Below, one piece after another: positions 48,695 to 58,459 of a DNA stretch of 64,000 bases (positions are counted from its first letter, which is position 1; every line of letters begins with the position of its first letter). Position numbers and translations under genes: made by a program. Under the pieces are notes generated by a model, which saw only the letters and a program-made list of their open reading frames with translations, searched no databases and was not told the origin of the DNA. The stretch comes from Desulfobulbus sp. Tol-SR (GTDB lineage: Bacteria > Desulfobacterota > Desulfobulbia > Desulfobulbales > Desulfocapsaceae). The stretch lies in the NCBI GenBank assembly GCA_000769715.1, contig JROS01000008.1, forward strand, positions 1 to 64,000, given 5' to 3'.

Positions 48695-49975
48695 TCAACC
48701 GCAGCCTTCCCCTCCGCCGCTGCAGCCGCCGGCGGCACAGGACTTTCTCCTCTTGCCCCTGAGCATACCGGTCCTGCCGCCGCTGTAGATGAGCGTCAGG
48801 GCCTCCTCGACGAACCCCGCCGCCTCGACCGGCTCGATCCCCGATTTGCTCAGGATCTCGGCGGGTGTGGCGCCGATGCCGCTGACCAGCACCGCCCGGC
48901 AGTCACCGAGGACCCGGGCCAGCTTGTGCCAGCGAGTGATGCCGCCGCCGCTGGGGGGGGCTTGACGCTCTTCGACCTGCCGGAATCGGCCGTCGAGCCG
49001 TTCCCAGATCTGGAAGCTGCGGGCCTCGCCGAGGTGCTGGTTGACGAGGATGCCCTCGCGGCTGGCGACGGCAACGTAGGGCCGTTTGACGCCCTCGGGG
49101 ATGACGGCGGCGGCGCAGGACGAGAGACAGCTGCGGAATTCCTCAGTCCGGTCGTCGTCGAGCAGGCCGACCGCATCGGCCCGGCAGCGGGTGCAGTGGC
49201 GCATCTGCGGCAGGTAGGTCTCGGCCATGTCGCGGATCGCCCGCATGGTGTCCTGGTCCGGCTGCGCAAGTCTGCCGAAGGGAGTGTTGACGTTGGGGAA
49301 CATGGCCATGCAGTTGAGCAGGTCGACGCCGAGTTCGCGCATCCGGGAGGCGACCGCCTCGACGTGGTGGTCGTTGACCCCGGGGATCACGATGCAGTTG
49401 ACCTTGATGATGATCCCGGCCTCCTTCAGCCGGCGGATGGCGGCAAGCTGCCGCTCCAGGAGCAGGGTCGCCCCCTGCCGGCCGCGGTAGACGATGTTGC
49501 CGTCCGAGACCCAGGCATAGATCTTCTCGCCGATGGCCGGATCGACGGCGCAGACGGTGATGGTCACGTGGGACACCCCGATCTCGGCGAGGGCGTCGAT
49601 ATGGGGACCGATGCCCATGCCGTTCGACGAAACGCAGAGCAGGGTGTCGGGATGCCGGCGGCGGATCAGGCGCAGGGTGGCCATCGTCTCCACCGGGTTG
49701 GCGAAGGGGTCGCCGGGCCCGGCGATGCCGGCAACGGTGATCCGCGGCTCCTTTTCCATAACCCTGTCCATATAGATGCCTGCCTGCTGTGGACTGAGCA
49801 GAGAACTGGTGACCCCGGGCCGCGACTCGTTGACGCAGTCGTAACGGCGGTCGCAGAAGTTGCACTTGATGTTGCACCTGGGGGCGACCGGCAGGTGGAC
49901 CCGGCCGAATTTGCCTTTGGCCTCGGGGTTGAAGCAGGGGTGACGGTGAAAGTCCTTGATGGTGAGCGAATCCAT
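48695..49975 (-). CDS. nifB: Nitrogenase cofactor biosynthesis protein NifB (radical SAM + NifX-like domain)
   Basis: HPCFNPEAKGKFGRVHLPVAPRCNIKCNFCDRRYDCVNESRPGV; C-terminal NifX-like domain and Cys/Gly-rich tail CAAGGCSGGGEGCG. Confidence 0.96.
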   Translation of the reverse strand: MDSLTIKDFHRHPCFNPEAKGKFGRVHLPVAPRCNIKCNFCDRRYDCVNESRPGVTSSLLSPQQAGIYMDRVMEKEPRITVAGIAGPGDPFANPVETMATLRLIRRRHPDTLLCVSSNGMGIGPHIDALAEIGVSHVTITVCAVDPAIGEKIYAWVSDGNIVYRGRQGATLLLERQLAAIRRLKEAGIIIKVNCIVIPGVNDHHVEAVASRMRELGVDLLNCMAMFPNVNTPFGRLAQPDQDTMRAIRDMAETYLPQMRHCTRCRADAVGLLDDDRTEEFRSCLSSCAAAVIPEGVKRPYVAVASREGILVNQHLGEARSFQIWERLDGRFRQVEERQAPPSGGGITRWHKLARVLGDCRAVLVSGIGATPAEILSKSGIEPVEAAGFVEEALTLIYSGGRTGMLRGKRRKSCAAGGCSGGGEGCG

Positions 49976-52793: not shown

Positions 52794-53202
52794 AATCGAA
52801 AAATCTCAAATACAGATGTGATAACAGGATGATATAAGATAGATCGCGAATTCCTGGGAGGTGCGGTCAGTCGGCCATGGGAAACAATCTTCAGAAATGG
52901 CAGGTTTGCTACAAAAATGTAGGAAATGGCCAAGGGTGAGGGAGGCAGGCGGAAGGATTCCCTGCGGAAGGCGCGGGCCAGGAGTAAAAAAGGTCTCTTT
53001 CCCGGCCCGACCGGTTGAACTGAATGTGAAATTTCTGTAGTGTGGCTGGTACGGCCCCGCCAGGCGGGCGCGTGCCTCGATGACCACCTGCGGTCCCGGA
53101 GGCGGGTGGGCGGCGCAGGTCTTCACCGCATTTATCGCCTGCAGCGTCTTCTGCCCCGGCAGGGAAAGGCCCCCTCTGCCCCTTGCATCACGGAATCATA
53201 TC

Positions 53203-54546
53203 ATGTTTGAAGGATCCATCCCCTCGACCGGCCCAGTTCCCCTCCCTGCACCTTCCCGTTCCCCATCGGCGGCGTCGGAAGTGTGTACCGATCGCCGGGG
53301 GGACATTCGAATCCGCATCCGCTGCCGGGGAGCGGACAGCTATGCGAAGGTCAGCTATCCCCAGCAGTACGGGATCTATGCCGAGATTGAGACCGCCGCT
53401 GCCGTCATGCGCTTCAATCCCGGCGGCGAGATCGTCCATCTCCAGGGCAAGGGGAGAGACTGGCCGCATCCCCAGGAGTGGATCAAGCGGACCATCGGCG
53501 ACGACTGGGTCTATTATTCGACCGGCGGCTATTCCGGGGTGGTCGAGGCGATCGGTGAATACTACCTGCCCAACACTCCCTACCCCACCAATTCCCTGCT
53601 CGGCGGCCGCCCCTTCGAGCATGCCGCGGTTGTCCGCCTGCTCGAATCCTGGCCTTCCCTGCTGGCCGCGGCGGCGGCCCGTCTGATGCCCCAGGCGCCG
53701 GCTGCGATTCGGGATTTTCTGGCCCGGGCCGGTGGCTGCGATCCGACCGTACTGCGGCAGCGGGCCGAGCAGCTGTTTTCGATCATCGGTGGGAGGGTGA
53801 CGGTCCTGCCGCCCGATGCCCGCCATGTCGATTACGACCTGGTGCCGGTCCATATCAGCGAGGGCTGTCTGTATAAATGCCGGTTCTGTCGGGTGAAAAC
53901 GGAGCGGCCGTACCGGGACAAGGAGTGGAGCGAGATTGAGCGGCAGATCGCCGACCTGCGGCGGTGGTTCGGTCCCAACAGCGTCAACTACAACTCGCTC
54001 TTCCTCGGTGAGCATGATGCCCTGGCGGCGGATCCGGATCTGATCATCGCCGCCATCGCCCGGGCCAGAGAGGTGCTGGGTCTTGCCGGTTCCGCGATGG
54101 CGGGCGGCAACGTCTTTCTCTTCGGCAGCGTCGATTCGCTGCTGCACGCCCCGCCCCGCCTGTTCGCCGAACTGGAGCGGCTGCCATGTTCGGTCTATAT
54201 CAATATCGGCCTGGAATCGGCGGATCAGGAAACCCTCGACAAGCTCGGCAAACCGCTGTCCGCCGCCCGGGTGGTGGAGGCCTTTCACCGCATGCAGGAG
54301 ATCAACGGCAATTTCAACCGGATCGAGATGACGGCCAACTTCGTCATGGACGAACTGGCCGCCGGTCATATCCCGGCCATGCTGCAGCTGCTCCGGGACG
54401 GCGTCCCGAGGAACCGCCCCAAGGGCAGCATCTACCTGTCGCCACTGCGCGTCGGCCGGCCTTCGCGGTCCCTGGTGATGGATTTCTATCGCCTGAAGAC
54501 CCTCAGCCGACTGCCGACCTTCCTCTACATCATCCAGCGGCTGTAG
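53203..54546 (+). CDS. Radical SAM protein of unknown function, divergent from nifE
   Basis: VHISEGCLYKCRFCRVKTERPYRDKEW (CxxxCxxC), GNVFLFGSVDSLLHAPPRLFAELERL, INIGLESADQETLDKLGKPLSAARVVEAF. Confidence 0.85.
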   Translation: MFEGSIPSTGPVPLPAPSRSPSAASEVCTDRRGDIRIRIRCRGADSYAKVSYPQQYGIYAEIETAAAVMRFNPGGEIVHLQGKGRDWPHPQEWIKRTIGDDWVYYSTGGYSGVVEAIGEYYLPNTPYPTNSLLGGRPFEHAAVVRLLESWPSLLAAAAARLMPQAPAAIRDFLARAGGCDPTVLRQRAEQLFSIIGGRVTVLPPDARHVDYDLVPVHISEGCLYKCRFCRVKTERPYRDKEWSEIERQIADLRRWFGPNSVNYNSLFLGEHDALAADPDLIIAAIARAREVLGLAGSAMAGGNVFLFGSVDSLLHAPPRLFAELERLPCSVYINIGLESADQETLDKLGKPLSAARVVEAFHRMQEINGNFNRIEMTANFVMDELAAGHIPAMLQLLRDGVPRNRPKGSIYLSPLRVGRPSRSLVMDFYRLKTLSRLPTFLYIIQRL

Positions 54547-55027
54547 GCCGCGGGAGGGCCCCGGCGGTCGGATCATCACCCCCTGGCGGCGGCGGTGGAA
54601 CCGGATAGAGGGAGGGGGCGAGCAGTGCCCTCATCCTGAGACCGATGGCCACGATCCGCCCGATATCGGCCGGGGCGGGGGGCTGGCGATGGTAGGTCTC
54701 CAGGGCGCAGATCTGCTGAAAATCGTCGAGGTAGGCGAAATCCGCGGTCAGGCCCGGCAACGGTCCGAGATGGCGCTCGAGGGCGGCCAGCAGGTCGACC
54801 ATGGTGTGGTTGTCGGCGAGGTCGCCCCGCCGCATCAGCAGGGCCATGATCAGCTTCTCGATCGCCATCGCCACCAGATTGTACACGATCTCGGGGGTGA
54901 ACCGGGGATTGCCGCGCTGGTGGGCGCTCACCGCGGTGCGCAGAAACTGTTCGCCGTCACGGCGATAGAGCTGCCAGCCGTCGAGCGGGATGATGTTGTG
55001 GCGCGGCTGGATCGGCAGGATATTCAT
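54530..55027 (-). CDS. HEPN-like small helical protein in nif locus
   Basis: VAMAIEKLIMALLMRRGDLADNHTMVDLLAALERHLG...FAYLDDFQQICALETYH resembles HEPN-type helical proteins; weak motif evidence. Confidence 0.45.
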   Translation of the reverse strand: MNILPIQPRHNIIPLDGWQLYRRDGEQFLRTAVSAHQRGNPRFTPEIVYNLVAMAIEKLIMALLMRRGDLADNHTMVDLLAALERHLGPLPGLTADFAYLDDFQQICALETYHRQPPAPADIGRIVAIGLRMRALLAPSLYPVPPPPPGGDDPTAGALPRPTAAG

Positions 55028-55048: not shown

Positions 55049-55549
55049 TCATGACGGTATCGGATCCGGCGCCGGACCGGAACCGTCATGGTGATAGCGG
55101 CGCAGGCAGACCAGGCCGGTCCCTCGCCACCCGAGATGGTGGTAGAAGGCGAGGGCCCGATCGTTGCCGCGATCGGCGAGCAGCTGCAGCCTCGCCGCCC
55201 CATGCCCGGCCGCCCAGCCGGCGACGGCGTCGAGGAGCCGGCGCCCGATCCCCCGGCCCCGGCTGTCCTCGTCGACCACGAGGTCTTCGAGCAGCAGGGC
55301 GTAGCCGCCCTCGGCGGTGGAGATGGTGAGCTGGCCGCTGCACATGCCGACCACCAGGCCGTCTCGTTCGGCGACCATGATCCGGCTGAAGGGATGGGTG
55401 ATGAGCATGTCGAGGCCGCGACGCTGACGGCCGCCATCGACCTCGAAATCCGCCTCGAGGGTGAAGAGCAGGGCCAGCAGACGGACGAGCGAGGGGATAT
55501 CGGCCGGACGGGCCGGCCGTATCACGACTTCCGCACTACTTGCAGCCAT
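55049..55549 (-). CDS. GNAT family N-acetyltransferase
   Basis: VVIRPARPADIPSLVRLLALLF, LLEDLVVDEDSRGRGIGRRLLDAVAGWA, LQLLADRGNDRALAFYHHLGWRGTGLVCLR. Confidence 0.92.
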   Translation of the reverse strand: MAASSAEVVIRPARPADIPSLVRLLALLFTLEADFEVDGGRQRRGLDMLITHPFSRIMVAERDGLVVGMCSGQLTISTAEGGYALLLEDLVVDEDSRGRGIGRRLLDAVAGWAAGHGAARLQLLADRGNDRALAFYHHLGWRGTGLVCLRRYHHDGSGPAPDPIPS

Positions 55550-55551
55550 CG

Positions 55552-55854
55552 TCAGCCGATCAGGTATTCGCCGGGCGGAGTGCCGTCCTCGATCCCGTCG
55601 AGGATGGCGTCGATGACCGCTTCGCTGGCGACTCCCTTGAACCACCAGTTATCGGGCTGGATCACCATGATCGGCCCGGCCTCGCACTGCTTGAGGCAGC
55701 CGGTGGCGACGACCTGCATGTCGAGGCCGCGGTCGAGGATCTCCTCCTCGAGGTACTGCAGGAACCCGTCGGTCTGCTTGTGGCAGATGCCCTTGGGGTC
55801 GCCCTTGACTCTGAAACTCTGACAGACCAGGATCTGTTTTTCCGGGGTGGCCAT
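55552..55854 (-). CDS. Thioredoxin-like [2Fe-2S] ferredoxin
   Basis: 100 aa: MATPEKQILVCQSFRVKGDPKGICHKQTDGF...VVATGCLKQCEAGPIMVIQPDNWWFKGV (C-x12-C...CxxxC). Confidence 0.9.
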   Translation of the reverse strand: MATPEKQILVCQSFRVKGDPKGICHKQTDGFLQYLEEEILDRGLDMQVVATGCLKQCEAGPIMVIQPDNWWFKGVASEAVIDAILDGIEDGTPPGEYLIG

Positions 55855-55874: not shown

Positions 55875-56996
55875 TCAGCCGGATTTCCGGCCGGATTTGC
55901 CTTTTTTGCCGCCACCGTAGAGGGCGTCGACGGTTCCTTCGATATTGTCGTGGCCGAGCAGGACGGTGATTCCGACCCGGGCCAGTTGCTGCCGGGGGGT
56001 CTCCCCGGCACTGGCGGCGAGGATGGCAAAGCAGTCGGCCAGCCGGTCGGCCAGTTGCCGCCAGCGGTCGGTGCCGCCGCCGGGTTCGGGGGCCGGTCTG
56101 GTGCCCAGAAGGCTGACCAGGTCGTCTTCGCGCCGGCCGTAGACCAGAAAGGTCCGGGTCTGGCCGAGGTGCAGGTCGATGTCGACGCCGTTCGAACTGG
56201 CGACGGCCACATTGGGGCGGCTCGCCGTCGCCTGCGGCAGCCTGGAGAGGACGGTGGGCGGCGCCGTCATGCATCCCTTGTCCGGGGCTGCCGTTTCGAC
56301 CGGTAGATGCCGGGCGCACCGCCGGCCGGCATCCGCCAGCCAGGCCGGATCGACCGCCGGCAGAACGATGTCGGCGCCATGTTCCTCGGTCTGACAGGGA
56401 ACCAGGACCATGCCGTCGGCACCGAGGGCGGCCATGGCGCAGGCGATCTCCTCGAGGTGGTCGCCGTTGTGCTCGGGATAGACCGTGGTCACGATGGTCA
56501 CCGTCAGCCCCGCCTCCTTGCCGGCGATGACCGTCTGTCGCTGTTCCGCCACCAGGATCCGGGCCGCCTCCGGCAGAGCCAGGGTCTTCAACCCGGGCCG
56601 GATCCAGGCGTAGATCTTTTCGAGATATGAGGGGTCGACGGCGTTGACCTGGAGCCGGATCTCCGCCAGTCCGGCCTGCTGCAGCACCTTCGCCAGCCCG
56701 TCGCCACCGATCCCGAGGGTCGCCAGGGACAGGCGGGCCAGGGGGTAGCGGGCGACCAGCGCATCCAGGGTGGCGAGGGCACGATCGGCCGTGGCCAGCG
56801 GATCGCCGGGACCGGTGAGTTCGATCCGGCAATCCTCACCGACCGCCATCGCCTCCACGAGGCGGACGGCCTCGGACGGCGTCAGGGCCTGCGCGGCCGG
56901 CGGCTGCAGCGGGGCAAAACGTATTCTGCTGCTCGCTTTGGGGGCGACGGGGAGGCGGATGATGCGCCTGGTCGCGGGGAAGTTCAGGACAGTCAT
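55875..56996 (-). CDS. NifB-like protein lacking radical-SAM cysteines, with C-terminal NifX/NafY-like domain
   Basis: RLPVAPKASSRIRFAPL aligns with NifB HLPVAPRCNIKCNFCDRR with all three Cys replaced; ELTGPGDPLATADRALATL, VNAVDPSYLEKIYAWI; C-terminal NVAVASSNGVDIDLHLGQTRTFLVYGRRE...GITVLLGHDNIEGTVDALYGGGKK. Confidence 0.8.
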   Translation of the reverse strand: MTVLNFPATRRIIRLPVAPKASSRIRFAPLQPPAAQALTPSEAVRLVEAMAVGEDCRIELTGPGDPLATADRALATLDALVARYPLARLSLATLGIGGDGLAKVLQQAGLAEIRLQVNAVDPSYLEKIYAWIRPGLKTLALPEAARILVAEQRQTVIAGKEAGLTVTIVTTVYPEHNGDHLEEIACAMAALGADGMVLVPCQTEEHGADIVLPAVDPAWLADAGRRCARHLPVETAAPDKGCMTAPPTVLSRLPQATASRPNVAVASSNGVDIDLHLGQTRTFLVYGRREDDLVSLLGTRPAPEPGGGTDRWRQLADRLADCFAILAASAGETPRQQLARVGITVLLGHDNIEGTVDALYGGGKKGKSGRKSG

Positions 56997-57085: not shown

Positions 57086-58459
57086 CTAGAAGACCAGCTC
57101 GAATTTTTCTTCCGGGGCGTCGCGATCGGTCCGGTCGAGGAGGGCCGAGAGGATCTTTTCCAGCAGCCGCAGGCCGCCCTTGTAGCCGACGGTCGGGAAG
57201 TACTGGTGCCCCTGGCGGTCGAGGATCGGGAAACCGAACCGGACCAGCGGGGTGTCCTCGTCGCGGGCGATATACTTGCAGTAACTGTTGCCGATGATCA
57301 GATCGACCGGGTCGTTCTTGATCCACTGGTGCAGCAGGAACATATCGCCCTTGGCCCTGACGTTGACCGGGAAGGGCATATCCCTGGTGATATCCCTGAT
57401 CCGCTTCTCGAACCGTTTGCCCGGGGTGCCGGTGACGAGGTGGACCGGACACATGTCGATCGACACCAGGAACTCGGTCAGGGCGATGAGCTGGTCGGGA
57501 TCGCCGGCCAGCGCCACCCTCTTGTGGTAAAAGTACTGGTGCATGTCGGAGATCAGGTCGACCAGCTGGCCGCGCTCGTAGGAAATCTCCTCGGGCACCG
57601 TGGTCCCGCCGACGGTCCGCAGGGCATCGATGAATCGGTCGGTGGCCTTCAGGCCGAAGGGCATGTCGAGGACCCGGCACGGCACCTTGTGCCTGGTGTC
57701 GAGCAGCCGCGCGGCGTCGGCCGAGCACCACTCGCCCAGCGCCAGGGTGCCGATGGCGGCGCTGCAGTTCTTGAGTTCGGCGATCGTCACCCCGCCCTTC
57801 GGGAACATGGTGTACTCGCCGTTGAGCGGACCATTGAGGACCCCGGAGGTGTCGGGGAAGAGGGTGATGTCGACGCCGACGGTGGCCGCCAGGCGCTTGA
57901 TCTCCTCCATGTCGCTGGGCTCGACCCAGCCGGGGATGATGTTGACCTTGCCGTTCTTCCTCTCGGTCGGCAGGGCCATATTGGCCATGGCCTTGACCAT
58001 GTTGGAAAAGCCGGTGACGTGCGACCCGACATAACTCGGGGTCGGGGCGCCGATGACCTCCTTCCCTGCAGGGGCCTTGCCTTCATCCCTGGCCTTTTTG
58101 ATGATCTGCGGCAGGTCGTCGCCGATCGTCTCCGACAGACAGGTCGTATGAATGGCTATGATTTCGGGATCATAAACGGTAAAGATGGTTTCGATCGCCT
58201 GCAGCAGGTTGGCCTGGCCGCCGAACACCGATGAACCCTCGGTGAACGAGCTGGTGGCGGCCGAGATCGGCTCCTTGTAGTGCCGGGTCAGGGTGCTGCG
58301 GTGGTAGGCGCAGCAGCCCTGCGAACCGTGGCTGTGCGGCAGGCAGCCGTGGATGCCGAGCGCCGCGTACATCGCCCCGATCGGTTGACAGGTCTTGGCC
58401 GGATTGATCGTCAAGGCCGATCGCTCCGTGATTTCTTGTGGTGTATGTCTCAGTAGCAT
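57086..58459 (-). CDS. nifK: Nitrogenase molybdenum-iron protein beta chain (NifK)
   Basis: TCQPIGAMYAALGIHGCLPHSHGSQGCCAYHRSTLTRHYKEPISAATSSFTEGSSVFGG; adjacent to nifD. Confidence 0.95.
   Translation of the reverse strand: MLLRHTPQEITERSALTINPAKTCQPIGAMYAALGIHGCLPHSHGSQGCCAYHRSTLTRHYKEPISAATSSFTEGSSVFGGQANLLQAIETIFTVYDPEIIAIHTTCLSETIGDDLPQIIKKARDEGKAPAGKEVIGAPTPSYVGSHVTGFSNMVKAMANMALPTERKNGKVNIIPGWVEPSDMEEIKRLAATVGVDITLFPDTSGVLNGPLNGEYTMFPKGGVTIAELKNCSAAIGTLALGEWCSADAARLLDTRHKVPCRVLDMPFGLKATDRFIDALRTVGGTTVPEEISYERGQLVDLISDMHQYFYHKRVALAGDPDQLIALTEFLVSIDMCPVHLVTGTPGKRFEKRIRDITRDMPFPVNVRAKGDMFLLHQWIKNDPVDLIIGNSYCKYIARDEDTPLVRFGFPILDRQGHQYFPTVGYKGGLRLLEKILSALLDRTDRDAPEEKFELVF

Follow-up and report, generated by a model that had tools for sequence, protein, structure and literature searches.

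What use has a nif operon for a second NifB-like protein from which the cluster-binding cysteines of NifB are gone? The question is raised by a gene, here named psB, in the window, meaning the whole stretch of 64,000 nucleotides of Desulfobulbus sp. Tol-SR DNA that was analysed. The psB ORF, on the minus strand, starts with an ATG at 56996, ends with the stop codon at 55875 and encodes 373 residues. Its location in the nif cluster downstream of nifK had been read correctly from the letters alone. The gene, the parts of its product and the relevant neighbours are as follows.

55875..56996, minus strand: psB, coding sequence of a NifB-like pseudoenzyme, recognised from its ORF, its BLASTP match to NifB and ~100 intact orthologues
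57086..58459, minus strand: nifK, directly upstream of psB on the same strand, across an 89-bp gap
55552..55854, minus strand: [2Fe-2S] ferredoxin, fdxn_Clost-related (NF041612, E 4e-15, below the model cut-off), directly downstream of psB across a 20-bp gap
48695..49975, minus strand: true nifB of the same cluster, 426 aa, with every Cys ligand present
56231..56966, minus strand: NifB-type radical-SAM barrel without cluster ligands, residues ~11-255 of psB (AlphaFold and Foldseek; ligand columns lost)
56901..56936, minus strand: former CxxxCxxC loop, A21-S-S-R24-I25-R26-F27-A28, after which comes the deletion of the CVNESRPGV loop
55878..56231, minus strand: NifX/NafY-type domain, residues ~256-373 of psB (PF02579), with His276 (in D-L-H-L-G) and Cys322 invariant in 99/99

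The nif operon runs nifH, two PII genes, nifD, nifK, psB, ferredoxin, GNAT acetyltransferase, unknown ORF, nifE, nifN and nifB. The GNAT acetyltransferase gene (55049-55549, minus strand) adjoins the ferredoxin and is kept in the same operon across most loci, and most Desulfobulbales loci have, alongside the nif genes, a counterpart (33-64% identity) of a 165-aa ORF (54530-55027, minus strand) that matches neither Pfam nor NCBIfam. Between this ORF and nifE, inside the cluster and on the opposite strand, lies a gene for a radical SAM protein (53080-54546, plus strand) whose nif-adjacent position recurs in just two close relatives, L039 and L040. A NuoB/hydrogenase small-subunit-like gene (PF01058; 47908-48651, plus strand) adjoins nifB, as it does in the close relatives L125, L127 and L173.

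NifB is the enzyme that makes the core of the metal cofactor of nitrogenase. psB is a full-length relative of the window's own NifB, with 29% identity over 383 columns (BLASTP E 4e-40), bearing out the claim that the protein outside the lost motif still tracks NifB. The true NifB passes the cut-off of the NCBIfam nifB model TIGR01290 (386.9 bits, cut-off 343.65); psB, at 88.9 bits, falls far under it, and its Pfam Radical_SAM match stays just below cut-off and excludes the end with the motif. Ligand columns were compared in an alignment of 99 distinct psB and 65 distinct NifB sequences, using the SAM-cluster, K1 and K2 assignment published for M. acetivorans NifB (PMC6053413); the correspondence rests on that assignment and on spacing, and the third K2 ligand of the M. 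acetivorans protein is unmapped. C34, C38 and C41 of NifB, which form the CxxxCxxC motif, correspond to A21, I25 and A28 of psB. The alignment thus confirms the loss of the three radical-SAM cysteines noticed from the sequence alone, finds the same in the 99 distinct orthologues, and shows that C14, C47, C114, C261 and C264 are lost in the window psB as well, bearing out the absence of downstream ligands that had also been noticed.

Across the 65 NifB sequences, the cysteines of the SAM cluster (C34, C38, C41), K1 (C14, C47, C114) and K2 (C261, C264) are invariant. At the psB positions equivalent to C34, C38, C47 and C261, Cys occurs in none of the 99 sequences, at C41 in 12, at C114 in 11 and at C264 in seven; the C14 column, in the gappy N-terminal region, holds Cys in 30/99. 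All seven cluster ligands are present in 65/65 NifB, against none in 74/99 psB and at most two in any psB. A CxxxCxxC motif anywhere in the protein was found in 0/107 psB orthologues versus 78/78 true NifB, and the CVNESRPGV loop is deleted in the window psB and in nearly all others. Because the same losses recur in 99 orthologues and CxxxCxxC is absent from all 107, the observation made in the window is not due to chance.

Compared with two-domain bacterial NifB (radical SAM plus NifX-like), psB shares the domain order, the barrel fold, the GPGDP, Gln and Asn residues and the nif-cluster location. It differs in lacking the aligned SAM, K1 and K2 cysteines, the CVNESRPGV loop and the CxxCRADAVG region, in forming a separate clade, and in occurring, wherever this was checked, in a genome that also has a true NifB. 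Judged by its missing motif, its missing K1 and K2 ligands and its score below the TIGR01290 cut-off, psB is not a functional NifB. Loss of the radical-SAM, K1 and K2 sites means, following established NifB biochemistry, that psB would be unable to make NifB-co by the known NifB mechanism.

Such losses might be expected of a decaying nifB duplicate (a pseudogene) or an annotation artefact, and two observations lean that way: the barrel evolves faster than NifB, and 3/32 sampled psB orthologues have long branches. The ORFs themselves speak against it, since all 107 read through apart from genuine C-terminal stops, with ~100 distinct intact ORFs and no frameshifts; apparent internal stops in three genomes proved to be C-terminal stop codons overrun by the search. 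Over 68 pairs, NG86 dN/dS reaches 0.291 at most and has its median at 0.189, with a lower median in the NifX half (0.116) than in the barrel (0.211), making the NifX half the slower-evolving one; pairs of NifB and of NifK give even smaller values, mostly 0.04-0.2 and 0.02-0.1, respectively. A quick tree groups psB in a single clade (SH-aLRT 100) to which no NifB belongs, not even those from psB genomes, with a long stem of 1.53 changes per column; the tree gives neither a sure position for long rows nor a sure date for the duplication.

These results, together with a whole-gene dN/dS of at most 0.29, invariant residues and a confidently predicted fold, make the decay or artefact explanation hardly credible, and it is refuted for the psB family as a whole. 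The sequence-only reading had called the gene probably not decayed, and ~100 intact ORFs, purifying selection, a single clade and fixed synteny uphold it; a check for orthologues that are sporadic, frameshifted or under relaxed selection did not overturn it. The Cys loss is conserved under purifying selection (median dN/dS 0.19). At one locus (L161, genome G015), the nifK match is broken into three pieces and the psB branch is long; decay of the nif genes in this lineage or sequencing error may be the cause.

A scan of 85,462 species genomes yielded 144 relatives, of which 80 were kept, mostly Desulfobulbales with additional Desulfovibrionales and Desulfobacterales; several carry broad names only, such as 'Deltaproteobacteria', which the taxonomy tool puts under Myxococcota. 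The loci closest to the window psB belong to Desulfobulbaceae/Desulfocapsaceae records. Among 58 Desulfobulbales genomes, psB is present in 34/37 with nifK and 0/21 without it (Fisher p 6e-13, uncorrected for kinship), a tally that rejects a sporadic distribution. In a phylum-wide sample of 297 genomes, psB occurs in 10, all with true NifB and all with nifH over cut-off. The plasmid collection contains no psB orthologue, only NifB-like matches of at most 33% identity.

The gene order is equally constant, with psB immediately flanked by nifK upstream and the ferredoxin downstream, on the same strand, in 103/104 loci with the neighbour in view. The only clear break in adjacency is in the cable bacterium Candidatus Electrothrix gigas (L111), where the psB-ferredoxin pair lies ~5 kb from nifK. 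A nifK-ferredoxin junction without psB is found in G040, G045 and Nitratidesulfovibrio vulgaris, the plasmid nif cluster of the last having the ferredoxin directly after nifK. Since three nifK genomes of the order and N. vulgaris have nif clusters without psB, the gene is not essential everywhere. Cys loss, selection, clade, synteny and restriction to nif genomes agree with the proposal of a catalytically dead NifB paralogue kept in the nif operon, and sequence comparison gives good support for psB as an ancient nifB duplicate, long retained in the nif operon of many sulfate reducers and their relatives.

The predicted structure, an AlphaFold2 model from a 27-row alignment (mean pLDDT 87.4), confidently indicates a NifB barrel joined to a NifX domain. 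Foldseek against the PDB ranks NifB structures first (7jma, 6y1x and 7bi7; E 6e-16 and target TM 0.87 for 7jma) and also matches NifX (9ian_F, E 5e-7). The barrel retains GPGDP in >90% of orthologues and Gln152 and Asn177 in all of them. Within the former cluster loop, R24 is conserved in 92/99 and R26 in 87/99, forming an R-x-R-F signature that argues for a new use of the emptied site rather than mere loss, and a new conserved motif, W131-I-R133-P134 (W-I-R-P), appears elsewhere in the barrel.

The claim that the NifX-like C-terminus is intact holds: the window psB scores 36 bits against PF02579 (cut-off 26.3), and all 27 aligned members match this family. All 99 psB share eight residues with the NifX half of NifB (H314, R337, R348, W349, D358, C359, G368 and P371), and psB His276 is invariant. 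Profile/HMM alignment of the NifX half places His276 at NifX His35 (9ian) and at the His of the D-G-H-F-G motif of the NafY core (1p90). In the NifEN-NifX cryo-EM structure, His35 of NifX is the ligand of the apical iron of NifB-co (PMC13128457), and the equivalent NafY His121 is a FeMo-co ligand (PMC11938142); we infer that His121 is the His of the 1p90 motif. The residue two positions before the His is Asp in 96/99 psB (Asp274), as in NifX and NafY, and Asn in 65/65 NifB, giving D-x-H-(F/L)-G in psB and N-x-H in NifB. As true NifB also has a NifX-like domain, inheritance alone could explain part of the retention of this domain, but part only, accounting by these comparisons for neither the invariance of the His nor the shift to D-x-H.

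Among known cofactor carriers, NifX, which carries NifB-co, resembles psB in its NifX-type domain, the D-x-H-(F/L)-G motif and the His35-His276 correspondence; psB differs by the fusion of this domain to a dead NifB barrel and by a score of 15.6 bits against the NCBIfam nifX model TIGR02663 (cut-off 112). NafY and NifY, FeMo-co carriers and assembly factors of apo-NifDK, share the two-domain layout of targeting plus NifX-type domain, and no PDB entry matches the psB NifX-type domain better in sequence than the NafY core 1p90, but the N-terminal module is a NifB barrel in psB and, going by the title of the NafY paper, a sterile-alpha-motif domain in NafY. AnfO also joins a NifX-like to a second domain and handles cofactor (PMC11938142); it belongs to the Fe-only system, and the Pfam AnfO domain was not found in psB. 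NafY and AnfO thus provide precedent for two-domain carriers built from a NifX-like and a targeting domain, and psB, by sequence, falls outside both NifX and NafY as their models define them.

Canonical standalone NifX over cut-off occurs in 14 genomes of the phylum sample and never together with psB (0/10 vs 12/60, Fisher p 0.19), a non-significant trend from only 10 psB genomes; replacement of standalone NifX by psB is therefore a trend and not a result. Many diazotrophs of the sample have neither protein. Weak NifX-like short ORFs lie just after nifB in six Desulfobulbales genomes (L119-L124), five of which also have psB, and the strongest nifB-adjacent ORF of this kind is in G045, a genome without psB. 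Six other PF02579 proteins are encoded on other contigs of the source genome, all short or in unrelated context and none with the D-x-H-F/L-G motif; they are possible NifX substitutes.

We regard psB as probably a pseudoenzyme that carries or inserts NifB-co or FeMo-co in the manner of NifX, NafY or NifY, with the dead barrel as docking module. An ancient nifB duplicate would have lost the radical-SAM, K1 and K2 cluster sites and retained the NifB-shaped barrel and a NifX-type domain with His276. NifB-co or FeMo-co would be bound through the NifX-type domain, with His276 as putative ligand, and the barrel would dock so that cofactor may be passed between NifB, NifEN and apo-NifDK. For the earlier suggestion of a NifB-co/FeMo-co carrier, scaffold or regulator, the support is indirect only and comes from the invariant cofactor-binding His and the NifX-type domain. 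Other diazotrophs keep the NifX-domain insertion factor gene nifY in the neighbourhood after nifK. With psB likewise placed after nifK, the apo-NifDK step would be favoured. NifY and NafY bind NifDK lacking FeMo-co and leave once the cofactor enters (PMC6016461); the nifK-psB order fits a similar role for psB on apo-NifDK, without proving it.

The retention of the barrel could instead mean that psB acts chiefly on NifB, as its regulator or assembly partner, pairing with it or competing for the NifU cluster donor or NifEN and so adjusting NifB-co flux, with the NifX domain contributing without being the main point. Purifying selection on the whole barrel (dN/dS 0.21), the retained GPGDP, Gln152 and Asn177 and new invariants such as W-I-R-P together go beyond what a simple carrier would be expected to require; we nevertheless think it unlikely, as the gene follows nifK and is not beside nifB, and the NifX half is under the tighter constraint. 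The same retained residues, together with R24 and R26 at the old cluster site, would also suit a protein with other chemistry, kept or gained, that binds SAM or another anionic ligand in the barrel at GPGDP and the R-x-R-F loop, or uses new ligands to hold a metal cluster. Cys at C295 in 85/99 psB, and an N-terminal Cys in ~30% of orthologues that could serve clusters in some of them, point in this direction. The N-terminal Cys is missing from the window protein and most orthologues, the barrel holds no conserved Cys set among the 99 aligned psB, and the SAM-anchoring cluster is gone, leaving this the more doubtful of the two.

Arragain et al. left 28% of records out of their 2017 NifB survey; most of these lacked CxxxCxxC, and they were taken for NifX on account of their NifX domain (PMC5715403). 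Those records resemble psB in their NifB annotation, missing CxxxCxxC and NifX domain; the survey describes no degenerate barrel, clade or synteny, and whether psB is among the excluded records cannot be read from its text. The literature searched, which left subscription journals and preprints largely outside, yielded no account of a degenerate NifB barrel maintained within a nif operon.

The transfer of NifB-co and FeMo-co among NifB, NifEN and NifDK is a part of nitrogenase assembly that cryo-EM has only recently begun to address. Returning to the carrier and insertion role, a more speculative extension, for which we claim less than even odds, is that, in this lineage specifically, a dead NifB has become a stable subunit of the machinery for cofactor transfer. 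The emptied barrel would then be a new binding module, R-x-R-F and W-I-R-P forming an anion or cofactor pocket or a docking face for apo-NifDK, and synthesis and hand-off would be split between two NifB paralogues. psB amounts to a natural separation-of-function NifB mutant in most diazotrophs of one order, which shows that the NifB body is of use without catalysis, and it allows the contributions of barrel and NifX domain to be examined one at a time. For the engineering of nif in anaerobes it is a candidate additional component, and a 'NifB' gene count for sulfate reducers or cable bacteria could include this non-catalytic paralogue.
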